From positions 11,844,464-11,908,463 of the forward strand of contig OW121743.1 of assembly GCA_933228675.1 (NCBI GenBank): a stretch of 64,000 nt of DNA, in the 5' to 3' direction. Both the position numbers and the translations under genes were made by a program. Below the pieces are notes generated by a model. That model was not told the DNA's origin, searched no databases, and saw nothing but the letters and a program-made list of their open reading frames with translations. The DNA comes from Stomorhina lunata. Lineage: Eukaryota; Arthropoda; Insecta; Diptera; Rhiniidae. This document shows positions 3,914-58,200 of this stretch, piece by piece. The first letter of the stretch is position 1. Each line of letters begins with the position of its first letter.

Positions 3914-4771
3914 ATGGCAAAACTTTTTCTAACTTTGGCAATTTTCTGTATTTTTGTCGTAATTTTGGTAAATGGACTCGATAAAGATGCAGCCGTGACT
4001 GAATTTATGAAAAAAGCGGATGCCTGTAGAGCAGAAGTTGGAGCCCAGGAATGTAAGTAATAGTCATATCTAATGTTATTTTATGGAAACCTTAACTTCC
4101 AAAATAAAATTTTGAATACAATAAAAATCAATTGAAATTTATAAAAAAAAACCCTTAAGGATGGATTAGTTGAACTTAGCGTGAAGCTGCCTTAACGGCC
4201 AACTTAACGTCTGACTTTAGAACAGTTATTGAACAACTTAACAACTTAAGACGTGCCATATGATTTCGACATAAACAATCAAAACAAAATATTTGCCGCT
4301 TGAATAGTCTGTTAATTTGTAGCCGGCGTCTTTATCCTCATACAATTTTGTTTAATTTACCTTTAAAAAATAAATTTCCAAATAAAAATATTTGTTTTTA
4401 CAGCTGATATTAAGGACTTAGTTGAGAAAAAGCCAGGCGCTACCATGGAAAGCAAATGTTTACGTGCATGTCTCATGAAGGTCTATGGTGCGGTAAGTTT
4501 TCCTTTATGTAAATTTTTGTTCATAAAATTTTACCCTCTTCGACATTTTTACAAATTCGTATTACAGATGGATGGCAATGGAAAATTGCTTAATAACGAA
4601 GCCTTAAAGAATATAGTCAGCATTGTTTTCGTAGCCGAATCTGTTGCGGACAAAATGAAAGCTGCCGATGAAGTGATTAATACCTGCGCTGCCAATTCGG
4701 TATCTGCTGATCATTGCGAAGCCGCCGACGAATATGTTAAATGCTTTAAGGATCAAGGAGCTGCTCATTAA
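3914..4771 (+). CDS. Obp28a-like: Odorant-binding protein, Obp28a-like (paralogue 1)
   Basis: This is a small secreted carrier of the PBP/GOBP family, expected in sensillar lymph or other extracellular fluid, where such proteins bind hydrophobic odorants or other ligands. Three exons join in frame: 3914-4052, 4404-4492 and 4568-4771, with GTAAGT donors and CAG acceptors, giving 143 residues. Residues 1-20 form a hydrophobic signal peptide. Six cysteines (38, 65, 69, 116, 126, 135) show the classic C2-x3-C3 and C5-x8-C6 spacing. KCLRACLMK, MDGNGKL and DHCEAADEY resemble Drosophila Obp28a. An AATAAA signal lies at 4877-4882. Intron 1 is 351 bases, against about 60 in the two paralogues. It is the shortest of the three proteins at the C terminus. 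Ligand and tissue cannot be read from sequence. Confidence 0.93.
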
Positions 4772-5580: not shown

Positions 5581-8300
5581 TTAACCCTTCGTGATACACA
5601 TATTTGGTTTTTCACATTAGCACCACATTGCGTCTGGCCAGACCCCATATTAATTTTAATATAATTTCATAAGTTAACATTGGTTTATTACGTACATAAT
5701 TTAAATAACAATTTAAGTTACATCAAATTGTAATTAAAAGAACAGGTGGTTTATCAATTCAACTTCTTATTTTATTTTTGCAAAGTTTTCAGTTCATAAA
5801 ATATGAGTTCAGAGTAAAATTAGTAAAAATGTATCATGTTATCAATCTAAGCAACTAAAACATATATATTCTACTTTGGAATGTTGCTGACATACAGGAC
5901 TTGAACATTTTGAACAGAAGAATCGAGTCTTTCGGCGAACTTTTTCACTTCCCGTTGCGCATTCTTTGCAAGACTTTTTTACTTCAAGGGTATCAGCTCC
6001 GCTTGAGGCCGTTATGACATTGTTTATCTGAAATGAAAATAGAAATTCCGAAAATCGATATCAGTTATGATTACAGTGTAAAGAATTATCTTTTTTATTC
6101 AACTTACTTTTATTGGTTTTCCAAGGATAGATTCTACTGCCGAACGGGTACTAAATTGACCCATAACATGAGGATTATCCATCCGGATTTCAATATTTGG
6201 AAGAACCAGAGAATTAGAAAGCGTGTTAAAAAAATTTCTTCTCTCGTCATTTCTTTTATTTTCATCGACTTCATTGCAGATACAGAATGCTGCCAATGCC
6301 ATTACATCTATCATATTGCAGAAAAATGCAAAAGTCCACCTCTTCGTTGTTCTCTTTGTTGTAAAATGCGAAACCATTTGGTCCATGCAATCAACACCAG
6401 CTTTATTTTTATTATAAAATAATATTGCCTCTGGTTTATTGGCTTCGCCTTCACATTTATCTGTATAATGTACAGTAGAAAGAAGATTGACGTATTTATT
6501 TTTTTTTGGAACATAACTGCAAAGTGAAACTAAATTGTCATGAAAACCAAAGACAGATGAATGAACAGGTCGTGAAGGATTTTTTCTCATTTCTATAGGA
6601 ATACATTTCTTGTTAGATCGAATGGTGCCAACAAATGCTAGTCCAATATTTGCCAGACGTTTTGCTCCTTCCAAAGATGTAAAAAAATTGTCGGTGACAA
6701 TTGTACGACCACTTTTAGCGTACGGCTTTGCAAGTTGCAGCATAACGTTTTCGCCTCGATTTACTTCACGCTGTTCTCCTTCTTGTCGGCCTGTGTACAA
6801 TTTTCCTTGAAATGGATACTTCGTTTTTGAATCACAGGCCTACCAAATTTTTATTCCGTATTTTGCAGGTTTAGAAGGTATGTATTGCGTAAATCTAGTT
6901 TTTCCCCGATATGGAAACAATTGCTCGTCAATTGTTATATTTTCATGCGGACTATAGTTCTTGGCAAGATTTTCGTTGAGAAAATTCCGTATATCACGAA
7001 TAGGTGCAGCTTTATCTTCGAGTAATCGAAACGAGCGTGTCCATCCGTCATCAAACCGAATGCATCTGGTCAAGGATATAAATCGATGAAGATACATTGC
7101 TGCCCTGAATATGGGTAAATTATCAGTACGCCACAAAACCCGTGTATTTTGCATGTTATTATGTGAAACTCCAGCTGCTATGAGAATACCAATAAAAGCG
7201 TATAATTCATCTTCCGTCAAATCTTTCCAAACTTTTGGTTTTTTATTTTCATTTGCAGCATTACATTTATTGACTGCATCTTTTCCATACCGATTTGTCT
7301 GAAATATAATGATGTCTGTAATATTTTGCGTTAAAAATTTTTTGAAAACATCAATTGGAGTAGAGATTGGTCTTTAGGCCCAGCTTGAAAACGCATCACG
7401 TTATGTTGACGAGTACGTACACCACTATTCGGTAGGTTTTTATTTTATACAGTCCCATCTTTTCCAATAAAGCAGTTATTACTCTGCTCACCCATTTCAG
7501 CATCACAGCCTTCCTCCTCTTCATCACTGTCGTTCTCTATATTTGGTTCGATTACCAAGTCATCTTCAATATCTGATGCATCATCTTCGTTTGGCAAATA
7601 ATCTTCATCACTTTCTTCAAAATCTAGATCGTCTTCTTCATGCTCTCTGGCCTCTTCATTAGCTATTTCACGCTCCAAATCATTTGCCATAGCCTCGGCA
7701 ATTCGTGTGTAAAAATCTGTATCGAAGTTTCTGGAATGTCGCGTATTGAAAATAAATTCTAATTCGTCATTCATTTTCGTAAACGTTACTATTTTTCCAC
7801 TTTTTTAGATAAAACTTCTCGCAAACACTTTGAAAGTTCGGAACAAACTAAAACAAAACACTCAAAGACTTTTTCCACGAAAAAATACAACGGTAAAAAA
7901 GTGATGGGTACTTAGCGCTTATTTGGGCGAAAAATTAGATTTTGTAAACTTACACCCGTTTTTGTCAACTGGCTAACAAATCTTGATAAGGTTCTACTTA
8001 TTTTATGCAAAAAATTAAAAAATATCAGGACTAAATACGTACGTACTGAACTTTTTCATAGAAAATATATGTGGGTCTAGCCAGACCCAATGTGGTACTA
8101 ATATGACATAGGTCTCAAAATGTCCTTCTAACTCCTTTTCTACTTACTTTTTTTATCGGATTTTTTGATCACTAAAAAGCCAAGAAAATTTTAGGAGGGT
8201 ACATGAAAATTCAAATCTCTAGCGATATTGCAAATCCATTTAAAGTAGAAAATAAACTCAAAAAGGTCTGGCCAGACCCATGACTGTGACGGAGGGTTAA
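5581..8300 (-). mobile_element. piggyBac-family DNA transposon, nearly complete
   Basis: The element is bounded by TTAA at 5581-5584 and 8297-8300, the target duplication of the piggyBac superfamily, leaving 2,712 bases inside. The termini start CCCTTCGT and, on the other strand, CCCTCCGT. Subterminal inverted repeats are better matched: 5613-5646 pairs with 8072-8105. The perfect palindrome GTCTGGCCAGAC occurs near both ends (5633-5644 and 8266-8277). Inside is one minus-strand transposase gene. The mismatched short termini suggest some decay. Confidence 0.85.
5842..7774 (-). pseudogene. piggyBac transposase, broken by stops and a frameshift
   Basis: The reading runs from an acidic N-terminal region (7774-7445, typical of piggyBac proteins) through a DDE_Tnp_1_7-type core to a cysteine-rich tail. 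All three catalytic aspartate blocks are present: ITIDEQLFPYRG, IVTDNFFTS and AGVDCMDQM. A TAG at 6840-6842 replaces a codon just before ACDSKTKYPF in the same frame. A stop and frameshift also separate the acidic part from the core at about 7445-7220. A plausible intron (donor GTAAGT at 6107, acceptor CAG ending at 6028) joins the core to the C-terminal exon 6027-5842, which has C-x2-C pairs like the piggyBac cysteine-rich domain. The breaks make it non-functional as read. Confidence 0.85.
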
Positions 8301-18826: not shown

Positions 18827-19240
18827 ATGGAAAAATTAGAAATACATGGTGTCATTAAATATTTACATAAAAGGTTTATCGGGACAAGAAATTCATTATG
18901 ATATGGTGAATGTGTTAGGTGAAAGTGCTTCTTCTTATGCAACAGTAAAAAATTGTGTTGCTGAATTTAAATATGGTCGTACAAGCTTTGAAGATGAGCC
19001 ACGTAGTGGACGTCCAAAAACAGCAATACTACAGATGAAAAAGCTTTCTGCAAGATGGGTGCCGCATTTGCTAACAGTCGACCAAAAACGCATAAGAATG
19101 AACATTTCTCAAGCTTGTTTGGATCGTTTTAAGCGAAATAAAATGGATTTTAAGCGTCGTTCCATAACTGTTGATGAGACATGGATCCACCACTATACTC
19201 CAGAGACAATACAATGGACTGAAGCTGGAGGAAAATTTGG
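18827..19240 (+). pseudogene. mariner transposase, truncated and frameshifted
   Basis: The ATG at 18827 begins MEKLEIHGVIKYLH. The reading must then shift by one base near 18870 to continue GLSGQEIHYDMVNVLGESAS, YATVKNCVAEF and EDEPRSGRPKTA. KLSARWVPHLLTVDQKRIRM and SITVDETWIHHYTPET follow; the last block holds the first catalytic aspartate of the DD34D family. A deletion removes the segment between RPKTA and KLSARW, and everything after about 19240, including the remaining catalytic residues, is lost. Confidence 0.85.
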
Positions 19241-20375
19241 TATATAGAATTTTAATATAAGTACTAGACAGCACATAAAAGTTCATCCAAATCGGTTCAC
19301 ATTTAACCATAGCTCCCATACAAAAAACTTACGGAAACAGCCTAAAATCCACCTAAAATAGACTTATAATAATAATAAAAATAATAATTTCCACGACAAC
19401 ATTCCAATTGGAACAAGTGGTACTTCTCTCAGACAATGAGCTGCATCCGATTCTATTTTTAGACTCATTGAAAGGGACCTACGTTTTAACTCCGGCTCCG
19501 AACGGTAAATGCATTAGTTAGAGAAGTTTTTCATAGCTTAATACTCAATAACCAGTGGCTAGCTGAGCTATGAGGTAAACCGCCGCTTTTTTGAAAATTT
19601 ATTTTTCAAGTGGGTCTGGCCAGGGATCGGACTTGGGACCTCTGGTATGCTAGGCGGATGATTAACCTGCTATACCACGGCGGTTCCACTGAAATACACT
19701 TAAATGCCAATAAATGATAAACTGTAACAGCGTTGGCCACTAAATTTAGCAAAAGGAAGTTTAATGTCAGTGCCAACCAGTATGCAAAATTGACACAATC
19801 GGTCACCATTTGGCCATAGCTCCCATATAAAAAACTTACGAAAACACAAAAATACAAAAAGAAAAGGGGGTTTATGTCCGTCTGTCCGCCAGATAAAAGC
19901 GCGATAGCGAATTAACGAAAAAAGCTAGAGGAACAAAATTTTACAAAAGCATTTTCGATATCTTGAAAAAGTTGTGTATTGAAAATGAACGAAATCGGTT
20001 CACATTTAGTTAGAGCTCCCATATAACCCCGATCCGGGAAACACATGATTGCTGATAAATTGAATACAATTGTAATAGCTATGATGACTAAATTTAGAAT
20101 AGAGAAGTTTTATGCAACTATTGGTCAGTATATCAAATTTTATAGGAATCGGTCCATATTTGACTATAGCTTTCATATAAAAAACACTCCCGGAAACAAA
20201 AAGAAAATGTAACAAAGGCCCGTTGAAAGCTAATAAATTAGAAACTATGACAGCTATGGCCACTAAATTTTGTAAGAACAAGCTCTATATAAAAACCAGC
20301 CAGTGTGTACAATTTTGTTACAATCGGTCAACATTTGGCCATAGCTCCCATATAAAAAACTGGCGTTTCAATTCT
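19225..20375. repeat. Degenerate ~150-190-bp repeat units (CATAGCTCCCATA type)
   Basis: The phrase ATAGCTCCCATA followed by AAAAAACT recurs near 19310, 19815, 20165 (altered to TAGCTTTCATATAAA) and 20340. Each is preceded by an AAATCGGT(C/T) block and a CACTAAATTTTG-like block, giving repeated diverged units. A SINE (19388-19687) is inserted between them. Related words occur at 34590-34640 and 63470-63485, so the family is dispersed. Confidence 0.55.
19388..19687 (-). mobile_element. tRNA-derived SINE, copy 3
   Basis: This is a full-length minus-strand copy. It has the tRNA-like head at 19610-19687 (B-box-like GTCCGATCC, A-box-like TGGTATAGCAGG) and the family body ending at GTTGTCGTGGAAA. 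Its tail, on the + strand side at 19360-19388, is an AAT-rich run instead of (TA)n. Confidence 0.8.
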
Positions 20376-21741: not shown

Positions 21742-22329
21742 ATGGCAAAACTTTTTATAACTTTGGCAATTTTTTGCGTTTTGGGAGCTGTCTTTGCGCA
21801 GGAATTTAATAAGGAGGAAATTTTAGCAGCGATTGTGGGCAAAGTGGAGGAATGTAAAGCAAACGAAGGAGCCAGTGACTGTGAGTTATAAAAAAATACA
21901 CATTAAAATTTAAAGAAATATTTGACATTTTAAATTTTAAGCTGACATCCAGGACATGATTGAGAAGAAACCCGCCTCTACCACGGAAGGAAAATGTTTA
22001 AGGGCTTGTCTTATGGAGAAATTCGAACTCGTAAGTTCGAACTCATGATAATGAAATTTTCTGTTAGAAAACTTTTGGTCAATACTATTATTTATTTCTT
22101 TGCTTTTCAGATGGACAATGGTAAATTCCTTAAGGAAAAAGCTTTAGAAAATACTGAGAAATTCAAGCATCATTCCGAGGAAAAAGCCCAAGTGGCTAAA
22201 GAAATTTTTGAAGCATGTGCTTATGTTGAACTCTCCGAAGATCGCTGTGAGGCAGCTGAAGATTTAGGAAACTGTTTCAATAAAGAGGCTATGTCCCGTA
22301 ACATCAAAGACGATTTTGTGTTTAATTAA
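21742..22329 (+). CDS. Obp28a-like: Odorant-binding protein, Obp28a-like (paralogue 3, divergent)
   Basis: The third PBP/GOBP-family gene has exons 21742-21880, 21942-22030 and 22111-22329, giving 148 residues with the same exon lengths and phases as paralogue 2. The signal peptide (residues 1-19, ending near VFAQ) keeps the MAKLF-ITLAIFC start. Cysteines fall at 38, 65, 69, 112, 122 and 131. The middle of exon 3 is more acidic and lysine-rich than in the paralogues, and DHCEAA has become DRCEAA, so the binding pocket may differ. AATAAA hexamers lie near 22365-22385. RTE-like 3' ends lie on both sides in opposite orientation (20650-21192 and 22555-23085). Confidence 0.92.
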
Positions 22330-24090: not shown

Positions 24091-24180
24091 TTCTGGGATT
24101 TGTAAGGAAATCTCAAGTCCTGTTTTCTCGTCTTGTCTACATCCCCCTTCTATGTACTACAACTGGAAATAAAACAGAGC

Positions 24181-26104
24181 TAGAGCTGAACTAGAACTGA
24201 ACTAGAACTGAACTAGAACTGAACTAGAACTGAACTAGAACTGAACTAGAACTGAACTAGAACTGAACTAGAACTGAACTAGAACTGAACTAGAACTGAA
24301 CTAGAACTGAACTAGAACTGAACTAGAACTGAACTAGAACTGAACTAGAACTGAACTAGAACTGAACTAGAACTGAACTAGAACTGAACTAGAACTGAAC
24401 TAGAACTGAACTAGAACTGAACTAGAACTGAACTAGAACTGAACTAGAACTGAACTAGAACTGAACTAGAACTGAACTAGAACTGAACTAGAACTGAACT
24501 AGAACTGAACTAGAACTGAACTAGAACTGAACTAGAACTGAACTAGAACTGAACTAGAACTGAACTAGAACTGAACTAGAACTGAACTAGAACTGAACTA
24601 GAACTGAACTAGAACTGAACTAGAACTGAACTAGAACTGAACTAGAACTGAACTAGAACTGAACTAGAACTGAACTAGAACTGAACTAGAACTGAACTAG
24701 AACTGAACTAGAACTGAACTAGAACTGAACTAGAACTGAACTAGAACTGAACTAGAACTGAACTAGAACTGAACTAGAACTGAACTAGAACTGAACTAGA
24801 ACTGAACTAGAACTGAACTAGAACTGAACTAGAACTGGAAATAAAACAGAGCTAGAACTGAACTAGAACTGAACTAGAACTGAACTAGAACTGAACTAGA
24901 ACTGAACTAGAACTGAACTAGAACTGAACTAGAACTGAACTAGAACTGAACTAGAACTGAACTAGAACTGAACTAGAACTGAACTAGAACTGAACTAGAA
25001 CTGAACTTGAACTGAACTAGAACTGAACTAGAACTGAACTAGAACTGAACTAGAACTGAACTAGAACTGAACTAGAACTGAACTAGAACTGAACTAGAAC
25101 TGAACTAGAACTGAACTAGAACTGAACTAGAACTGAACTAGAACTGAACTAGAACTGAACTAGAACTGAACTAGAACTGAACTAGAACTGAACTAGAACT
25201 GAACTAGAACTGAACTAGAACTGAACTAGAACTGAACTAGAACTGAACTAGAACTGAACTAGAACTGAACTAGAACTGAACTAGAACTGAACTAGAACTG
25301 AACTAGAACTGAACTAGAACTGAACTAGAACTGAACTAGAACTGAACTAGAACTGAACTAGAACTGAACTAGAACTGAACTAGAACTGAACTAGAACTGA
25401 ACTAGAACTGAACTAGAACTGAACTAGAACTGAACTAGAACTGAACTAGAACTGAACTAGAACTGAACTAGAACTGAACTAGAACTGAACTAGAACTGAA
25501 CTAGAACTGAACTAGAACTGAACTAGAACTGAACTAGAACTGAACTAGAACTGAACTAGAACTGAACTAGAACTGAACTAGAACTGAACTAGAACTGAAC
25601 TAGAACTGAACTAGAACTGAACTAGAACTGAACTAGAACTGAACTAGAACTGAACTAGAACTGAACTAGAACTGAACTAGAACTGAACTAGAACTGAACT
25701 AGAACTGAACTAGAACTGAACTAGAACTGAACTAGAACTGAACTAGAACTGAACTAGAACTGAACTAGAACTGAACTAGAACTGAACTAGAACTGAACTA
25801 GAACTGAACTAGAACTGAACTAGAACTGAACTAGAACTGAACTAGAACTGAACTAGAACTGAACTAGAACTGAACTAGAACTGAACTAGAACTGAACTAG
25901 AACTGAACTAGAACTGAACTAGAACTGAACTAGAACTGAACTAGAACTGAACTAGAACTGAACTAGAACTGAACTAGAACTGAACTAGAACTGAACTATA
26001 ACTGAACTAGAACTGAACTAGAACTGAACTAGAACTGAACTAGAACTGAACTAGAACTGAACTAGAACTGTAGTAGAACTGAACTAGAACTGAACTAGAA
26101 CTGA
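24181..26104. repeat. 11-bp tandem satellite (GAACTGAACTA)n
   Basis: About 175 head-to-tail copies of an 11-base unit fill about 1.92 kb with very few variants (for example near 25007, 25998 and 26070). At 24833-24858 the block AACTGGAAATAAAACAGAGC that forms the left boundary at 24161-24180 reappears inside the array, so the array has been duplicated together with its flank. No gene is encoded. True length may differ, since such arrays are often collapsed in assemblies. Confidence 0.95.
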
Positions 26105-45430: not shown

Positions 45431-46339
45431 CTTTTAATGGAATAAGACTAATAATCATCTCGCCTAGAAATTAGGTATCAGATTATAACCACGCATTTGC
45501 CCTGGGTCATCTTTGTTGACAACATCCAAAACCTCAAAACATCATTCACTTTTCTAATGTGATGAGTTTGATTGGGCCCTGGTACCAGTCTACATTGCGA
45601 CATATGGGAGTTGTACCCGGCATCTCTATAATGACTTAGGATTACACTGAAAACATTGCACTTTTAATGAAACTCCACTTATTCCTCGGAATGGTAATGT
45701 CAGCCGCCTCTTTGATTGCAATTACCAGGATATCTTTGACAACCAAAGGCCTTTTTGTTGCCAGTGAATCATTATACCATCACAATTTTTAACTTAAATC
45801 CTTAGAAGTAGAGTGTTTTCGAGAAATCTTGCCATCTTGCAAATTTCAAAGACTCTTTATTTTAAAACCTATCTTTCTCTGCTGGCAGTCAGAGATTTTA
45901 AATCAACTTTAAATCAACTTTCAAATCTCTCAATAGTTCCTTTTATTATACCTCTTCTTTAAAGGTCTTAAGTTTTTTTCTTTCAAGGTTCATGTCTCAT
46001 ATTAGGTGACAGTTTCAGAAGAAGAGGTTGAATCACTGAGCCTGAGGTCGGTTTCAGTACTCATTTTACTGTAATTATCCCGCTTGCGCAGACCTCTTTT
46101 TAGCTTATGCTTTCCCCTAACGAAAGTAAATAAACTTCTTCAAAGAGTACCTTACAATTCTATCAGAAAAGCATAGATCCAAAGCTTATGATTGGCTGAA
46201 ACAGTATAAATTTAAAAATATGTTTTAGTTTAAAACCAGACATAGGCACATTAACATTTTGAGTCTGTGTGTGTGTGAGAAAAGTTTTGCAAACGAACAT
46301 TCTCCCCTTGAATAATTTTTCAACAAGCAAACAAACAAC
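45431..46339. other. Stretch with no supportable gene
   Basis: I see no coding motif. A short GT run lies near 46264-46276. The right end (to 46344) is the left flank of the Transib insertion and contains one copy of its target duplication. Confidence 0.55.
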
Positions 46340-46344
46340 CGTCT

Positions 46345-47765
46345 CACAGTGGTTTACGGACGCTTTTTTTTGGAAATAATTCTGTAACTTTTGAACGACT
46401 GGAGATATTTGAATGAAATTTGACATGGTGGTAGTCAAGGAGTATTTGAGTTGGTTTTTAAAAGCACTGGTCCATGAGGGGTCGGGAGAGTGATTGATGG
46501 ACCTTCAAAGTTGGTCACCTCGGGTGTTCGATTTTTTTAAAAATTCGCCAAAAATCCATTTATGTATGGATTGAAAAGAAATTTTAAACTTAAGTTGTCC
46601 TTGAGAAGATCTACAAAAAATATGCTTAAATGTGTAGGTTATCTCCTTTGGATTTCGAGATATTTGGGTAAAAAGGAATTTTTAGGTTGATTTTTTACCT
46701 CTTTTTTTAAGCTTTTTTTGATCTGGTGGACGCATCTGAGGACCAAAATTTTTTTAAGAATATTCTTTAAATTTGTAATAAAATTCTGAATAATTTTTGT
46801 GCAAGTTAGTTATAGAAATCTTCTTTTGTTTAAAAGTTAAAAATATTCAAAGTTGAAACTTACAAAAAATTTCGCTTTTTTTTTTGTTTTTCCCCAAAAG
46901 ATAGCTATATTTTTTCACTAATAAAAAAATATTTTCTTAAGAAACATAAAAAGATTTTTAAAGTTTTTAAAAGAAAACATAATGAGAATGCGTATAAAGC
47001 AAATTTCTTGCTAATTGGACTTTTGGTCCTCGCACATGTCCTCTCCAAAAAATGGCAATTTGTAAAAAAAAAATTAGTTTAAACAAAAATTTCTCAAAAG
47101 GCAAAGCACCGATTTGAAAAAAATTATAATGTTCATATTTTCCAATATATCTGTTATTGATTAGAAAAGTTTTTTCTGAAACGCGCTGCAAATAGAGACA
47201 GTGTTGCCATATTTGTAAAAAAAACTCATTTTTTGAAACACCTTTTTCCCCAGTTGGGAATTGGGGAATTTTTAAGTTAAAATTGGGAATTTTTTTTAGT
47301 CTATTGCTTTTACATCTTATTGGTCTACATTACTACAAAATTTCATTGTAATATCTTTATCCATGTCATTTCCACAGAATATCAAAGATTAAAAATATTT
47401 TCCTTAAAAAAGCAGAAAAACAATTTTTTTTTTGTTTTACGATACAAAGTGTAAAAAAAGTAACGCACTTAAAAAAAACTTTTACTTAGTGCTAATCTCC
47501 TAGTCTTTCCCGATCTAATGATACTAAACATGTATATAAAGCATTAATACCGAGTCTTAAAAAACTCTGAAAAGTTTGGCCCCCGTAGCATTTTTACACT
47601 GTTTATTTAAATATAAGTGATGAATTTGTGCATATAAAGTTAATTATCATACTCAAATATTTCACTATTTTTAAGATGACAATGATCCTTCGCTAATAAA
47701 CAAATGTTTTCTTCAAAAAGATATAAATAGTTTTTTATTTTTTTAAAGAAAACATTATAAGAATG
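46345..47765. repeat. Transib left long inverted repeat
   Basis: This arm matches the reverse complement of 50484-51875 almost base for base over most of its length, with small indels near the inner end (for example around 47715-47735). It has no coding function: short frames here (such as 47191-46967) are mirrored in the other arm and lack family motifs. It may hold transposase binding sites and promoter sequence. Confidence 0.9.
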
Positions 47766-48317
47766 ACTTAAAAAAATTTTATTCGATTTTGCCTTTTGTT
47801 CCAAGCTAAAAAATAAAATTTTAGTAAAAGATTCTAAATAAGTAAGTACGAGTAAGGCACCGATTTTGATAACAGTGTAAAGGTAATATATCCATAATTT
47901 GTAGCAAAAGTTTAATTAGAAGAGTACTTTTATAGTAACAGTGTGACAATTTATTTAAAATAAGATTTAAAGGCATTTTTCCGGTATTTAAAATTGGTGT
48001 ATTTGAAAAAATTGCAAAATTATGTTAAGGTTATAAAATGTTTTTTAATGTGAAAGTTAATGCAATAGGTAAAAATTGTTACAACTTGGGTTTTTCATAA
48101 TGGTCAGAAAGGATATGGTTACTCACCTCCATACAGGTAGGTTTTACGAGACGCACATATTGGTTGAGTTATATATGCACCTATTTTTAGAGGTAAAAAA
48201 TACATTAATTCATTGATTTCTTTATTATTCTTTGGATACAGGTATATATAAAAAATGTTTTTTTTTAATATAAAAAAGAAAGTTTTAAATGTAACTGCTA
48301 TTAACAGTTAAAACATC

Positions 48318-50354
48318 ATGGCTATAACATTGGAATTTAAAGTGTTGTGCGATATTCTTTTTGAACAACCAAGCAGTTCGAGAGCAGAAAAAATTAAAAT
48401 AATCATGCGATATGCTAAAAGTCAAACTAACTCCATGATTCTCAATAGTGAGGAAGACAAAGTCGTAAAATTTGTAAAGTTATTTGAACTTAAAATTAAG
48501 TCGGTTAATTACTGTTTAAAAAGATTTGAATCTAAATTTAAAGACTGGCTGAAGGACTCAATTGAGCTTAAAACTTCTGGTGCTGGAGCCCCTCTAAAAA
48601 ACTATGATGATCTCGGAGAAAGATCTAAAAAGATGCGATTATCCGAAGTTCTTTCTACTCATTCGGATACTGAAATCAAAGATTCCTTTAAGGAAGTGCT
48701 CAAACGAAATAATCAACCAGCTGAAGCTAAACAAATAGCAGATATTCTCCCAGAGGCTTCTCCTAAACGTCTTAAGCGAATTATTAAGAGTATACCAACT
48801 CCTTCTTCTCAATCAGAATTTTCGGAGGAAGAAGCACTTGCTCTTATGCTCGAGTTGAAATTGAGTAAAAATAAATATATTAAACTCTGTAAGGCATTAC
48901 GAGACAAAGGACACTCAATTTTACCAGGATATAATGCGTTATTAAAAACCAAAAAAAACTTAATACCAACAAACGTGATAGGAGACGAAAGTGCATCTGT
49001 GGATTTATCAAAATTATTGGAAAATACGGCATCAAGGCTGATATCTACTACATTGTCTGAAGAAGAAGCCAAGAAACTTGACAACAAGGACTTAACTTTA
49101 ATATGTAAATGGGGATGTGACGGTTTATCTGGATTACCGGAATACAAACAATCAACATCTCATCAGAACACAAATGACTACAGAAGCGTTTTTATGGCAT
49201 CCCTAGTACCACTAAGATTAAGAAAGAATCGTTCTGAACCATCCACATCAAAAGAGCGTACTGAATATGTGTGGGTTAACACATCTCCAGGATCAAAGGC
49301 ATTTTGCAGACCGATCAGATTCGAATATTTAAAAGAAAATGCAGCAAGCACAAAAAATTGGGTTGATGATATCAAATATTCAATAGACAATTTGAGTCCA
49401 GTCTGCATAGACATACATGGATATTTGATTAATGTAAATTTTGAGCTTCAATTGACAATGATAGATGGAAAAGTAAGCAACGCTATAACGGAAACCCATT
49501 CAACTTGGAAATGCTCATTATGCGGAAAGAAAAAATCGGAATTTCTACAAACTTCAGAAGATGCATCAGCTAGTACTGCAATTAATCAAGAGGTTCTGGA
49601 ATTTGGTATATCGCCCCTACATGCACGTATCCGATTTTTAGAATTTATGCTACATATAGCATATGATCTGAAATATAGGAATATACCTGATAATCAGCTA
49701 AAATCCGTGAGAAATAATAAGGAACTGATTGAAATGAGATCCAGTGAAAAAAAAAGGATTCAGGAAGAATTCAAAACTATGACGGGTCTAAACATAGACA
49801 AACCACTTGTAGGATATGGCAGTACAAACGATGGTAATACGGCCAGGCGATTCTTTGAAAATTATGAAACAACTTCAAAGATTACTGGAATTGATGAGGA
49901 AGTTCTTCGTAAATGTTACGTAATATTATCGGCAATAAATAGCAAATATCAAATAAATGCTGAAAAATTTCATTGCTATGCCCTCAACGCGTTAACTCGT
50001 ATACGACATTTGTATCACTGGAAAGAAATTACACCAACAGTTCATAAAGTCCTTCAACATGGTCGTGAAATAATTGAATCAAATCTTCTCCCACTTGGTG
50101 AACTGACAGAAGAGGCCCAGGAAGCGCGGAATTCAGATTTCAAGTATATCCAACCATTTAATACCAGAAAATGCTCAAGAAAATCGCAAAATCAGGATCT
50201 AATAAATTATCTCTTGTTGTCTTCTGATCCTGCTCTATCAACGATAAGAAAGAAATGGTGGAGCAGTTATACAAAAACTTCTGAAAACGAACACCTGGAA
50301 GAGGTTCTTGATATAATAGATTGTACTGATTATTTTACTGAAAATAAAAATTAA
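48318..50354 (+). CDS. Transib transposase (RAG1-like DDE recombinase)
   Basis: This is a single uninterrupted frame of 678 residues, within the usual length of Transib transposases. The enzyme would bind the element ends and catalyse cut-and-paste transposition in the nucleus through a hairpin-forming mechanism, as RAG1 does. The first catalytic aspartate is D268 in KWGCDG, the second D383 in MIDGKV, and the glutamate E602 in EEAQEARN. Zinc ligands corresponding to the RAG1 core are C399-x2-C402 (WKCSLC) and H576-x4-H581 (VHKVLQHG). SLVPLRLRKN, STNDGNTARRFF and FNTRKCSR are further family blocks. Residues 1-250 are basic and helical and probably hold the DNA-binding part. ACATCATGG gives a fair start context, and AATAAA occurs near 50423. 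No stop, frameshift or intron is seen. Confidence 0.95.
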   Translation: MAITLEFKVLCDILFEQPSSSRAEKIKIIMRYAKSQTNSMILNSEEDKVVKFVKLFELKIKSVNYCLKRFESKFKDWLKDSIELKTSGAGAPLKNYDDLGERSKKMRLSEVLSTHSDTEIKDSFKEVLKRNNQPAEAKQIADILPEASPKRLKRIIKSIPTPSSQSEFSEEEALALMLELKLSKNKYIKLCKALRDKGHSILPGYNALLKTKKNLIPTNVIGDESASVDLSKLLENTASRLISTTLSEEEAKKLDNKDLTLICKWGCDGLSGLPEYKQSTSHQNTNDYRSVFMASLVPLRLRKNRSEPSTSKERTEYVWVNTSPGSKAFCRPIRFEYLKENAASTKNWVDDIKYSIDNLSPVCIDIHGYLINVNFELQLTMIDGKVSNAITETHSTWKCSLCGKKKSEFLQTSEDASASTAINQEVLEFGISPLHARIRFLEFMLHIAYDLKYRNIPDNQLKSVRNNKELIEMRSSEKKRIQEEFKTMTGLNIDKPLVGYGSTNDGNTARRFFENYETTSKITGIDEEVLRKCYVILSAINSKYQINAEKFHCYALNALTRIRHLYHWKEITPTVHKVLQHGREIIESNLLPLGELTEEAQEARNSDFKYIQPFNTRKCSRKSQNQDLINYLLLSSDPALSTIRKKWWSSYTKTSENEHLEEVLDIIDCTDYFTENKN

Positions 50355-50483
50355 GTAAATAACTACTTTTATATAAATATGTAATAAAAACTGTAAGTTT
50401 AAACTTTAACTACAAATACTTCAATAAAATGTATTTCACCTTTTAATATAAGTACAAATTATTTACATTTTGATATTTCATAA

Positions 50484-51875
50484 ATCCTCATGATATTTTC
50501 TTTAAAAAAATAAAAAAATATTTGTTTGTTATCGAAGGATCATTGTCATCTTATAGTGAAATATTTGAGTATGATTATTAATTTTATATGCACAAATTCA
50601 TCACTTATATTTAAATAAACAGTGTAAAAATGCTACGGGGGCCAAAGTTTTCAGAGTTTTTTAAGACTCGGTATTAATGCTTTATATACATGTTTAGTAT
50701 CATTAGATCGGGAAAGACTAGGAGATTAGCACTAAGTAAAAGTTTTTTTTAAGTGCGTTACTTTTTTTACACTTTGTATCGTAAAACAAAAAAAAATTGT
50801 TTTTCTGCTTTTTTAAGGAAAATATTTTTAATCTTTGATATTCTGTGGAAATGACATGGATAAAGATATTACAATGAAATTTTGTAGTAATGTAGACCAA
50901 TAAGATGTAAAAGCAATAGACTAAAAAAAATTCCCAATTTTAACTTAAAAATTCCCCAATTCCCAACTGGGGAAAAAGGTGTTTCAAAAAATGAGTTTTT
51001 TTACAAATATGGCAACACTGTCTCTATTTGCAGCGCGTTTCAGAAAAAACTTTTCTAATCAATAACAGATATATTGGAAAATATGAACATTATAATTTTT
51101 TTCAAATCGGTGCTTTGCCTTTTGAGAAATTTTTGTTTAAACTAATTTTTTTTTTTACAAATTGCCATTTTTTGGAGAGGACATGTGCGAGGACCAAAAG
51201 TCCAATTAGCAAGAAATTTGTTTTATACGCATTCTCATTATGTTTTCTTTTAAAAACTTTAAAAATCTTTTTATGTTTCTTAAGAAAATATTTTTTTATT
51301 AGTGAAAAAATATAGCTATCTTTTGGGGAAAAACTAAAAAAAAAGCGAAATTTTTTGTAAGTTTCAACTTTGAATATTTTTAACTTTTAAACAAAAGAAG
51401 ATTTCTATAACTAACTTGCACAAAAATTATTCAGAATTTTATTACAAATTTAAAGAATATTCTTAAAAAATTTTTGGTCCTCAGATGCGTCCACCAGATC
51501 AAAAAAAGCTTAAAAAAAGAGGTAAAAAATCAACCTAAAAATTCCTTTTTACCCAAATATCTCGAAATCCAAAGGAGATAACCTACACATTTAAGCGTAT
51601 TTTTTGTAGATCTTCTCAAGGACAACTTAAGTTTAAAATTTCTTTTCAATCCATACATAAATGGATTTTTGGCGAATTTTTAAAAAAGTCGAACACCCGA
51701 GGTGACCAACTTTGAAGGTCCATCAATCACTCTCCCGACCCCTCATGGACCAGTGCTTTTAAAAACCAACTCGAATACTCCTTGACTATCACCATGTCAA
51801 ATTTCATTCAAATATCTCCAGTCGTTCAAAAGTTAAAGAATTATTTCCAAAAAAAAGCGTCCGTAAACCACTGTG
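50484..51875. repeat. Transib right long inverted repeat
   Basis: This is the reverse complement of the left arm, ending CCACTGTG at the CGTCT duplication. It lies immediately past the transposase polyadenylation region. Its outer end is 330 bases from the stop codon of the next gene. Confidence 0.9.
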
Positions 51876-52129
51876 CGTCTTGGTTGGATGATCGTGAAAA
51901 ACTGAATTGCCTAAGATTAAATTGTTGCGTTTTTTGTGATTTAAGGGTAACTACAAATACGTGTGGCACTTATCGCGCTCACCTACAATGGCTATATCTG
52001 TTTGAAACCAAAAATATTAAAAATAATCAATTTTAAACCAAAAATATTGAATTTAATTTTTAAAACCGAAAATAATAACAATACTTACTTTGTTTTACGA
52101 CAATGCGTATTACGAGTTCCTCCTTTGTA

Positions 52130-52204: not shown

Positions 52205-55200
52205 TCACTCTTTCATCATATTACCACTAGTATTGCCACTGGCTGCACCAGCGGCCGCATTGTTCATTAGCTTATGTTGGGGTATAACTGTTAAAGATTT
52301 TGGAATTTTTGATAGTAAAAATTGTTGATGCTGTTGCAGCTGCTGCTGTTGTTGTTTCAAAGCATTGTTAAAATCTGTCATGTTTGAAGGAGAATTATTA
52401 GGTTTGGCTAATAGTTGAGGGAGTTTTGGTACATTAGCTCCGGCAGTACCACCATTGAGTATGAGATTATTGGGATCGGGGAAATTATTCCAAAGCCACG
52501 ATGTTGGCTTCATGTTGTGTGAGGATGAGGCGGAGGTGGAGGAGCTGGTAGCGGCGGGATTAACATTGCCGGTATTAGCAGCATTTGTAATGGCATTTGC
52601 TAATAGCGGCATCATGGGAGCGGTAAAGTTGGCATTAGTATTAATGGGAGCTTGCAGGGGAGGCATTGTTGTGATGTTACTGGTAGCGGGTTTAGGAGCT
52701 ATATGTTGATATCGTGGTGGGTTTTGTGAATTGGCGGAATTGTTGGCTGCTTTAAAAAGAGCTTGTTGATGTTGCAACATTTGCAGTTGTAATAGTTGTT
52801 GTTGTGCTACTTGTTGCTGCTGTTGGCGTTGATTAACAGCTGTAGATGATGGTTGGAAATTTTTGTTCATATTTTGTAAATTCGTTTTTTGGAATTGTTG
52901 CTGTTGTTGATTTTGTAATTGCTGCTGTTGTTGGTGCAAATGTTGCTGTTGTCCCTGCACCTGGGCTTGATGCTGTTGCTGCTGCTGTTGTTGCTGCTGC
53001 TGCTGTTGTTGTTGCTGCTGTTGTTGCTTAGCTTCTTGACGTTTTTTGGTGTTTTTCAACATTTGGTCACGCATTAGTTTTTCACGACGTAAAATACACA
53101 TACGATTATAGTCGAATATTGAAATGAGGAAGGGCTTACCTCCAGATTGTACTTGCACCAAAGCTGGCAATCTACGGCCATCTGCCGTCTGATAAAGTGG
53201 TCCATTTTTATCGATAGAAATAGGATTTTGTTCCAATGGTATAAGTGTGGGACGCCATGTTTTACTTTGCAAACGTTCTTGCGGCGTTAAAGTGTCTGGC
53301 AAAATAATAACATTTGGAGGAGGTCTTGATATTCCTGGTTTTCCTATTACCTGAGGACGTTTCACCAGGTTACTGGGAGGTTGATTATTATTGTTATTAA
53401 TATTAATATTGGGCGCAGTCACCGGGTTTACTTGACCTGTCGATCTTCTCTGTAAACTCACCAACTCTGGCGGGGAACTAAGAAGCGAAGGTTGATTTTT
53501 ATTTTGATTTGCTGCAGCAGCTGTTGCTTCCAAATGATTGCCCAATAATTTATTGGCAACATCAAGTATTTTTTGTTGCTTAGTTTCTGGTACTGGTGGA
53601 ATGGGAGCAGGAGGGGGAGGAGGCGGTGGAGGGGCATTAGGATTACTGGAGGATTTTGCGACAGTAGTAGGTGTTGTATTGTTAATGGGTAATATCTCCA
53701 CAGATTTATTAATGCCCAATAAGTTGCATTTCAAAATACTGCGACTATTGCTGGGACCACCTCCGGTACTGGCCGAGGCAGTAGAAGCGGCTAAAGCCAC
53801 AGCAGCAGCAGCATTAGCCGCTGCCAAGTTTGCAGAAGACGAAGTGCTGGGCAAATTTTGAACGGAGGAAATAAGGTTGTCTTTAAGTAAAGATTTCTGT
53901 GGTGAGGGTGTGGCTCTTCTGCTATTTGATAATGATGATGATGTGTCTTTTGGTCGTGCTGTAATTGTTACAGCATTCGTGCTTAGTTGTTTGGTTAGTT
54001 TATCGACAGATAGACTGCGTGACCGTTGTAATGTCTGTTTGCTCTGGTTACTGGCATTGGAGTTCTTAGACTGAGCTGAAGAAGATTTTGATAATTTGTC
54101 TACGTCAGTCATTTCAACATCTGCATCCTCCGAATCTTCTTCATCGTCATCTTCATTTATAACGAATGTTGGTATTTGAGGATCAATTTCCTTGCCTTTA
54201 GTATTGCCACTAGTTCCGCAAGTAGCACTACTACTAGCTTCCTTCGGCGTGCCTGTACCTATATATAAACCTCCACAATGGCCTTTATCATATGAAGTCA
54301 GGCGCTGTTTAACAGTTTGTGTATAAACACTGGCATTACTTGAGGCACTAGCCGATAGCACCAAATCACCATTACGAAAATATTTCTCTAGCAAGATCAA
54401 GTGGCGCAAAAACGAACTTTGATTGCCGTAGGGCTTTTGTAATTCCTCCCAGAGACGCCGTGTTGGCTCGTCGTATTGCAAAAACGTTTGAACTCTAGTC
54501 CAACCCTCAGGAGTTCTCTGGCTACCACTACCCCCAAAGGGTGCTTTGAAATGTAGACCCAAATCTTCTTCACCAGGAAATAGTTCACGCATTGATATAT
54601 TAGGATTTGCTCTTAAGACATTTGATATATCAGCAGATGGTTGCTTTTCAGCTGAGGCATTACTTTGCAAAATAGCTTTTAGTTTAGACATTTCGTTTGG
54701 TGAATTCGATGCCGTGTGCGAAGCAGACGAATTGGAAGAATCCGTTGATATGCCAGCTGTTTCAAAGTCAGGTTCTAGAGTATTTTTCGTTGTACTTTCT
54801 CCATCCATTGCATTGGTATTTATGTTTGAATTCTCTGTTAGGGTATCTTCCAAGTTAACTGAAGTATTCTTTTGCTCAGATGATGTATCGTTTTCTTGCG
54901 GCAAAGAATCGCTTTTCTGTTGTAAATCATTGTTATCATGATTTGAAGCGCTATTACTATTGCTATCATCTTCGTCAGCTTCAGAAGCATCATTGCTGCC
55001 ATCGTGAATATTGTGGAACTGTAAAAGACTATAAAGAAAAAAATTAAAATGTTAAACTACAACATTTTCAATTGTAATTAAGAAATTTTCAATTGAAATT
55101 GAGACTTTTCAATTGAAATTGAGAAATATTTAATTAAAATTGATATTTATCAGTTGAATATGAGAAATTTTCAATTGAAATTGAAATTAAGAATTTTTCA

Positions 55201-58200
55201 ATTGAAAATGAGAATTTGCAAATTGAAATTGAGAAAATCCCAATAGAAAATGAGAAATTTTCAATTAAGAATTTTTAAATTGTAATTGAGAAAAGCCCAA
55301 TTGAAAATGAGATTGAATTTTTTAATTGAAATTGAGAAATTTTCAATTGAAAATAAGAAATATTCAATTGAAAATAAGAAATTTTCAATTGAAATTGAGA
55401 ATTTTAGAATTGAAATTGAGAAAAGCCCAATGGAAAATGAGATTGAATTTTTTAATTGAAATTTTCAATTGAAAATGAGAAATATTCAATTGAAAATGAG
55501 AAATTTTCAATTGAAAATGAGAAATTTTCAATTGAAAATGAGAAATTTTCAATTGAAATTGAGAATTTTAGAACTGAAATTGAGAAAAACCAATTGAAAT
55601 TAAGGTTAAATTTTTTAATTGAAATTGAGAAATTTTTTATTGGAAATGAGAAATTTTCAATTGAAAATGAGAAATTTTTAATTGAAAATGAGAAATTTTC
55701 AATTGAAATTGAGAATTTTAGAATTGAAATTGATAAAACCCCATATCAATTTCAATTCAAAAATTCTCATTTTCAATTGAAAATTTCTCAAATTCAATTG
55801 AATGTTTCTCATTTTCAATTACGGTTTTCTCAATTTTAATTGAAATTTTCTCATTTTTAATTGAACATTCTCAATTTCAATTGAAAAATTCTCAATTTTA
55901 ATTGAAAATTTCTCAATTTCAATTGAAAATTTCTCATTTTCAACTGAAAATTCTCAATTTCAATTGAATATCTCTCAATTTCAATTGAAAAGTCTCAATT
56001 TCAATTGAAAATTTCTCAATTTCAATCGAAAATTTCTCAATTTCAATTGAAAATTCTCAATTCCAATTGAATATTTCTCAATTTCAATTAAAATTTCTCA
56101 GTTTCAATTGAAAATTTCTCAATTAAAATTGAAAATGGTGTAGACAAATTAATTAATGAAATATGTTTTTTCTTAGTCTATGTTCTTAGTTATATTAAAT
56201 AAAGGAACTGGTAGCAAATATTAATCAAAATTTTGGCGGTAATTTAAATGAATATTAATCCATTTGTTTTTTTATTACGTGAAGGTCTAAAAATATTCCT
56301 TTTGGTATTAAAAGAACACACTCTACTTGTATCACGAAGTTTAACCTGTGCCATATACGAAATTAATTAAGTGAACCCTTTTACAAGGCTACAGCTTTTA
56401 ATAATGTAATATCTAAAGAAAAGTTAATGGAATCCAAATGAGAACTTGCCAACAAGATATAAAAACCCAAAATCAATCAGAAATTAATCAATTGATTGTA
56501 ATCTTGCCTTTAAAAAGGTTTTTTAAAGACAAAATATTAAAGACCAGCAAGTTCTACATTTCTTAATACCAAGGATAGTCCTAAAGCTACCCAATTTGTA
56601 AAAATTTAAGTTTAATTTATTACACTTACCGTTTTCTATAGTTTTTAACAAATTCTGCCTTTTGAGATTTGGTACTATCTGGCGGTTTCATTAACAAATT
56701 AGCAAAATACCGACAGAGCTTACAAACAGCTGTGCCAATACCCAATTGTACGGGTATACCCATTTCGCATAAAGCCTTTTCTAAGCGATCGGTGTCCTAG
56801 AAAATAAGAAAAATATAAGTATAACGTAAAAATATAACTTGAATTTAGGTTTAAAAGCCAAATCTTACCGATGTTATATGATACATATGATTTTTACCCA
56901 AACGTCTTTTACACAAAACACAGCCAGAACATTGGATCACTGTATCGTAATGTGATTGACAGAGCCAGACACATGAAGCTCCCGCAGGTATTTCAAATTT
57001 AAGCAAGAATTTCTTAACACTTTTGCGTATACATTTACGTCTAAGTGAATGAGCAGCAGGATGTACACAATCGGGTACTAAGCATTTACGGGATGTCGCA
57101 TTGGCATTAAAACCATCGCCACCCTCCGTTTCGTTACGATTATCATCAAACTGAGAATTTTCTGCTGATTTTAGAGAAGTAGAAGCCATTGATTCTAGAT
57201 TGCCGGGAGCCGAAAGACGTTTTTTATACGAAGGTACATTGGCTCGACGGTCCACATGACGAAAACAGGCATCACATAAACAGTTATCGACTGTTAGTTT
57301 TTCTTCATCTTTTTTGTTTTGGAAAAAGATATTAACATAATATTTTCAAGTCACAAAAACTTTAGACAAAAGTTAACTTACTGGCTAGAATTTTTTGTTG
57401 TCTTTCCATGGATTTTATTTGGCCCACATGACATGGTGTATCGTAGAGTCCAAATTTGCCACTACAATAGAAACATTGATCTTCACACAAACGTCCGGGA
57501 TGAAACTTGAATGATGATGCCTTTTCTGGTATAAGAATTTCTTCTTTTTCGTCTTTTTTATTGTGATCATGAGATTCTGAATTGGAAGAATCTAAATTGA
57601 GAATTGTATAGCAGACAACACACACACACATACATAAGAAAATTATATGTACACAAGAAGAAATAAAAGAACAAAGGATTATTTACAATAAAAATTTTGT
57701 GCCAAAAGTAAATTTCTCAAAAAAAAAAAAGGAATAAATAGTTTGGCTTTTGAAAAATTAGGATTAGGAGGAAAGTATTAAAAAATTTGGTAAAGTATAA
57801 TTAGATAACAACATAAAAAACTACTAAAAAGGTTAAAATCTGTTAATATTACTCTTTACACCATGTTAATTGTTTTACTATAAATACACACCCATTTCAT
57901 AAATATGGGCAGTGCTGTTTGAGGAGGCACTATGCGTATGATGATATTGATGATGATTATAACGATAATTATATGATTTTCTAGCATACGTAGTGGTTAG
58001 ATTTTTAACGATATTGTTATTATTATTGTTAGTATGTGTTAAAGCTAATCTAGTTACAGAGGTAGTAGAGGTTGTAGGAAAAGAATTAAATTTTTGAAGC
58101 GCACCTTCAGTCTGAAAATGGGTAAAAAGAAAAACAAAAAATTCATTAAAAACTTTCAAGTACTTGAAATTAACTGTATAGACAAACATACCTCATTTTG

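Follow-up and report, generated by a model that had tools for sequence, protein, structure and literature searches.

A complete copy of a recently amplified Transib family

The window analysed here, a 64,000-nucleotide stretch of the Stomorhina lunata genome (contig OW121743.1, positions 11,844,464 to 11,908,463), contains a 5531-bp element at window positions 46345-51875. This element is very probably one complete copy of a recently amplified, autonomous-type fly family of Transib DNA transposons, whose transposase is a relative of the enzyme rearranging antibody genes. The superfamily is known and the element a new member of it; what stands out is an amplification that is recent, massive and largely intact. 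Among the papers listed in literature searches, none described a comparable Transib family in a fly like this one, although absence is not thereby proven. Both termini of the element begin with CACAGTG (the right one finishing as CACTGTG on the plus strand) and are flanked by a perfect duplication of CGTCT, as a first-pass annotation of this DNA had claimed. The features of the element are listed by window position and, where it applies, strand.

46340-46344: left target-site duplication CGTCT, read from the sequence
46345-46351 (+): left terminal heptamer CACAGTG, equal to the consensus heptamer of recombination signal sequences (RSS) as given in PMC8289069
46345-47710 (+): left long terminal inverted repeat (TIR), about 1366 bp, from self-comparison of the element
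48318-50354 (+): open reading frame (ORF) of a Transib/RAG1-like transposase, 678 aa, from ORF scan, PDB and protein searches, fold comparison and profile alignment
48579-48809 (+): residues 88-164, which may correspond to the nonamer-binding domain (NBD) of RAG1, with G90-K94 against RAG1 GRPRQ
49119-49121 (+): predicted catalytic D268, aligned with Hztransib D126
49464-49466 (+): predicted catalytic D383, aligned with Hztransib D225
49512-49523 (+): C399 and C402, putative ZnC2-type zinc ligands
50043-50060 (+): H576 and H581, putative ZnH2-type zinc ligands
50121-50123 (+): predicted catalytic E602, aligned with Hztransib E436
50154-50156 (+): codon 613, Pro here and Leu in the 23 other aligned copies, in a predicted helix (599-614) just after E602
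50383-50514 (+): three AATAAA motifs (50383, 50423, 50509) between stop codon and right arm, as motifs only
50515-51875 (-): right long TIR, about 1361 bp
51869-51875 (-): right terminal heptamer CACAGTG
51876-51880: right target-site duplication CGTCT

The first-pass annotation had not mentioned the two long inverted arms detected here, of about 1.36 kb each and 99% identical (1346 of 1360 aligned bases, with 7 gap columns), whose first 39 bases are the same at both ends. A search of the window for CGTCTCACAGTG gave a single exact match, and 4 matches when up to 2 mismatches were allowed versus 1.62 expected by chance, so that the short string proves little by itself; we take the ends as real on account of the 1.36-kb inverted repeat and of the copies found genome-wide. 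Elsewhere in the window, no other pieces of the element were found except for one 35-base match (E 6e-4). A tandem-repeat search inside the element gave only two weak 16-bp rows, and thus no Galileo-like internal repetition. Membership of the P superfamily with long TIRs (Galileo/Foldback-like) was considered and rejected, the transposase not being of the P type.

A RAG1-like transposase with an additional N-terminal region

The frame at 48318-50354 has no internal stop codon, in line with the 678 uninterrupted codons announced for it. A Pfam search of this ORF yielded no match above cut-off, many relatives of the transposase carry precomputed PF26100, and its identity was settled by a search of the PDB, a protein search having been recommended in the first-pass annotation: Hztransib was the best match with 306 bits, BbRAG1L reached 21 bits, and no other transposase superfamily came ahead. 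In a fold comparison the predicted model matched Hztransib, RAG1 and BbRAG1L. The residues D268, D383 and E602 align with the Hztransib triad D126, D225 and E436 (published numbering, obtained from the chain index by a constant offset of 17) and are invariant in the 43 rows of alignment A1, which comprises the window transposase and 42 relatives. So are C399/C402 and H576/H581 (43/43), which we take from knowledge of the family to be zinc ligands of the ZnC2 and ZnH2 types. Triad and fold bear out the RAG1/Transib catalytic core that had been recognised, and the sequence supports placing the element in the Transib superfamily with a predicted core of this kind. The target duplication, 5 bp long and GC-rich, is likewise that of the superfamily. 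The nearest protein in the protein search (P0001, 675 aa) is 61% identical over its whole length and is the sister of the window transposase in the tree (support 97/99); named relatives are from flies (Stomoxys, Lucilia, Eurosta), an ant, butterflies and a cockroach.

Among characterised elements, the Helicoverpa zea transposon Hztransib (PDB 6pqn/6pqx; PMC1852546) shares the triad and the fold, and its transposase core is identical at 38-39% of positions across model residues 165-672. It also has a 5-bp GC-rich duplication and is described in PMC1852546 as having long TIRs, as in the window element. Yet Hztransib is 3518 bp long with a 489-aa ORF (497-residue PDB chain), versus 5531 bp and 678 aa here, about 160 aa of which are extra at the N-terminus. 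The transib1-4 elements of Drosophila melanogaster belong to the same superfamily in a fly, but PMC10299278 lists them at 2167-2883 bp, and their TIRs span 40-45 bp, against about 1360 bp here.

The Hztransib chain lacks anything equivalent to residues 1-164, of which residues 88-164 are possibly a homologue of the NBD of RAG1, judging from sequence and model. Five of the 30 RAG1 rows in the fold comparison start at model residues 88-92 (one of them pairs residue 91 with RAG1 391), with high root-mean-square deviations of 8.1-12.7; the remaining 25 begin at residues 164-167, and parts of the model outside 164-650 are barely tested by this comparison. A profile alignment places the GRPxK motif of the relatives, which reads GAPLK in the window copy, on mouse RAG1 GGRPRQ, with an i-Evalue of 93, the stretch alone being not significant. 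If GGRPR corresponds to mouse RAG1 389-393, as we assume, the fold and profile alignments would be in the same register.

The P613 of the window copy is its sole protein difference from the 23 other aligned copies, and a proline is found at this position in none of the 42 relatives. The other 64 scored copies all share one protein score, lower than the window copy's own. This copy is thus open, but L613P, lying beside the catalytic helix in the model, may leave it impaired or weaker than its sisters. It may therefore not be the best copy for the proposed comparison with RAG1.

Hundreds of near-identical copies

The genome containing the window (728 Mb in 104 contigs) was searched for further copies, as had been suggested, and holds hundreds of near-identical dispersed ones. 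A 36-mer from the ORF was found without mismatch at 505 places, and the 26-base terminus, likewise exact, at 1759, counts of short words that do not prove a full element at each place; reversed control words did not occur in the same search. Of the listed ends, the first 100 all lie on contig C1 and include 40 facing pairs, 30 of which are full-size (29 with the ORF word), 8 shortened and 2 lengthened. The copies scored by protein were the best 65 of 2022 candidates, a choice that biases the finding that 65 of 65 were full-length and open. The 24 loci fetched at length were drawn from these, so that perfect frames and identical ORFs were partly selected for; 17 of these 24 other copies carry the majority ORF at every base. 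The mean pairwise difference among 24 full elements is 0.24% (L021 is absent from the alignment, since a substitution in its left end kept the exact search from detecting that end). Beyond the best 65, the first 12 ORF places in the list were read as well, and seven of these keep the frame, six being open with 1-2 replacements and one having an in-frame 12-base deletion; the 12 copies carry 29 substitutions in total. The claim that intact copies are rare therefore fails in this genome.

Private substitutions amount to about 0.65 to 1.2 per 1000 bases, suggesting that many insertions are not brand new; at assumed rates of 2.8e-9 to 5e-9, this would roughly correspond to 1.3e5 to 4.2e5 generations. 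Insertions and deletions in single-base runs may partly be assembly error. Divergence was lower in the ORF than in non-coding parts, which we did not take as evidence for selection, the copies having been ranked by protein score. Collectively, the family decays copy by copy in part, and its source sequence is nearly uniform.

Insertion sites and shortened derivatives

Perfect 5-bp duplications flank 61 of the 65 copies: the window copy and the 24 long loci, 35 of the 37 short windows with both ends located, and one more after a wider look. They have many different sequences, making it very unlikely that the CGTCT duplication and terminal repeats of the window copy are an assembly artefact, the outcome that would have undone the initial proposal. 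The 60 duplications counted have a GC content of 0.60 versus 0.34 in the window and contain CpG in 40 cases, versus 10% of window 5-mers, with C favoured first and G last. Empty sites, another check that had been called for, were found for copy L009: four neighbouring tandem units are uninterrupted and gap-free, 98.5% identical over 200 bases, with a single CGCCA. The array into which this copy is inserted has a repeat unit of about 463 bp. Perfect duplications also flank 7 of the 8 shortened copies, which suggests that the shortened forms were probably mobilised as such. As to the window copy, the 97 bases to its left (46248-46344) match a dispersed repeat at 83-84%, with 40 other scored places in the genome, and the insertion thus probably hit or abuts another repeat.

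Several observations weigh against the preferred reading of a recently amplified, autonomous-type family, beside the limits of the word counts and of the ranked sample given above. Five of the 12 copies outside the best 65 are frameshifted (three of them in one run of nine A's), and 20 of the 100 ends considered above for contig C1 are unpaired. Four of the 65 copies have no demonstrated perfect duplication, one lacking its left end, one having its ends 13.4 kb apart, one showing differing 5-mers and one an extra base. One of the 8 shortened copies has differing flanks, and the window copy itself carries the private L613P.

Ends resemble RSS in the heptamer

The heptamer CACAGTG is present at all 74 located ends of copies, and both heptamers of the window element equal the RSS consensus, as first reported. 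The likeness is limited to the heptamer, with no clear nonamer and no 12/23 asymmetry. When the nonamer ACAAAAACC was looked for at the ends of the window element, spacers 12 and 23 were not among the eight best offsets; the best match (7/9) lies on the opposite strand with a spacer of 10, within a T-run, and the best on the same strand (5/9) has a spacer of 22. The identity of the first 39 bases at both ends excludes a 12/23 asymmetry. Most Transib families have symmetric TIRs according to PMC8289069, Hztransib for example having the heptamer with little or no nonamer, and a few with 12/23-like asymmetry are listed in PMC8355894; the window ends are thus of the commoner Transib type. The exceptions described there, Transib5 of D. 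melanogaster and Transib2 and N1-N3 of Anopheles gambiae, share the superfamily and RSS-like heptamers with the window element, but have nonamers and asymmetric 12/23 spacers, in contrast to its symmetric ends.

The likeness to vertebrate RAG1 and its RSS thus consists in the catalytic core, the fold, the heptamer CACAGTG and possibly, from the model, an NBD counterpart. Unlike that system, the window element is a transposon and not a receptor-gene recombinase, and no RAG2-like ORF, clear nonamer or 12/23 asymmetry was found in it.

The two arms exchange sequence

Common polymorphisms are mirrored between the arms of the 24 aligned elements (46384/51836, 46431/51789, 46447/51773, 46532/51688 and 46623/51597). 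At the first of these sites, all four pairings of a left with a right variant are seen, in 2, 4, 9 and 9 of the 24 copies, with no association (Fisher p 0.65), and mosaics of both arm haplotypes are present. We conclude that sequence is exchanged between the arms; candidate routes are gene conversion, template switching during gap repair and recombination between the inverted arms.

Alternative explanations and proposed mechanism

The analysis shows the ends with their duplications, empty sites, open frames with the catalytic residues and a predicted fold, as well as the number of copies, their near-identity and their mixed arm haplotypes. On the course of events we propose the following. A transposase dimer would bind two CACAGTG ends, nick at the border between flank and heptamer and then form a hairpin on the flank, a chemistry suggested by Hztransib and RAG. 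The freed element would be joined into GC- and CpG-rich DNA at positions staggered by 5 bp, and repair by the host would convert the stagger into the 5-bp duplication. Transposition coupled to repair or replication would have raised the copy number, starting from one source sequence or a few that were nearly identical, and shortened derivatives with the same ends would also have been mobilised.

The same family may by now be silenced, for example by PIWI-interacting RNA or by small interfering RNA from the long inverted arms, a variant of the preferred explanation whose likelihood overlaps with it and which we put at somewhat short of even. The private substitutions speak for it, and the long arms could yield double-stranded RNA; yet the identical ORF in 17 of the 24 fetched copies, a selected set, fits late transposition. 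A tentative proposal, which we consider rather doubtful, is that transposition goes on in flies living today and that the 1.36-kb arms serve as homology tracts through which exchange in gap repair keeps the ends identical and symmetric.

Other readings fare much worse. A Transib relic, or a RAG1-like host gene domesticated and no longer a transposon, could be suspected from L613P in the window copy and from the five frameshifted copies, but is very unlikely in view of the intact ends and perfect duplications, the empty sites and the several hundred scattered copies of nearly the same sequence. That a locus was multiplied by segmental or satellite duplication instead of transposition would accord with one pair of full-size elements (L125-L127, C1:32263932-32274985) arranged head to tail and joined by exactly 5 bp, CATCG; such duplication is extremely unlikely as the source of the copy number, the examined copies having their own, differing duplications and flanks. 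Flank similarities among 25 examined copies comprise 75 matching pairs, the first 59 of which are mostly short or diverged, like other repeats. In the L125-L127 pair, CATCG also flanks one element on the outside, whereas the outer flanks of its partner differ. A RAG-like (ProtoRAG/RAGL) transposon carrying both RAG1L and RAG2L, nearer to the direct ancestor of V(D)J recombination, has a negligible probability: RSS-identical heptamers and the fold match to RAG1 and BbRAG1L speak for it, but Hztransib is the best match by a wide margin, the ends are symmetric, and no second ORF above 112 aa was found in the element (a spliced RAG2L would be missed). ProtoRAG itself (BbRAG1L, 6b40), only distantly similar to the window protein in sequence, carries RAG2L, the heptamer CACTATG and asymmetric TIRs according to PMC8289069.

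As a Transib DNA transposon family, these hundreds of near-identical, largely intact CACAGTG-ended copies offer natural material for studying end recognition and target choice (CpG), as well as the N-terminal region absent from the Hztransib chain and the effects of long arms on transposition or silencing. If the family is indeed active, RAG-like transposition could be followed in a living fly, in a system that combines heptamers identical to those of RSS with an NBD-like domain, and ends kept symmetric by arm exchange would be the opposite of the 12/23 asymmetry needed by V(D)J recombination. The account of the origin of V(D)J recombination is not changed by this family alone.

Other features of the window

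An Rfam search of the window gave no match at gathering scores, and a bacterial promoter scan was set aside as uninformative for fly DNA. Three adjacent ORFs lie at 6099-7774 (-), the one at 6099-6800 matching the piggyBac-type transposase domain PF13843, and this looks like a broken piggyBac-like element; a fragment at 18846-19247 (+) resembles a Mos1-type mariner transposase, with HTH_48 below cut-off. ORFs at 4445-4771 and 21994-22329 (+) match odorant/pheromone-binding proteins (PBP_GOBP), the second only at cut-off. A neighbouring gene has its closest named protein in Lucilia cuprina (60%), and the host was judged from the sequence to be a fly, probably a calyptrate. Overlapping imperfect inverted repeats are clustered around a KFSIENE-type repeat at 55057-56143, and a satellite-like array at 24156-26104 consists of 177 copies of an 11-bp unit (ACTAGAACTGA) with 98% matches.
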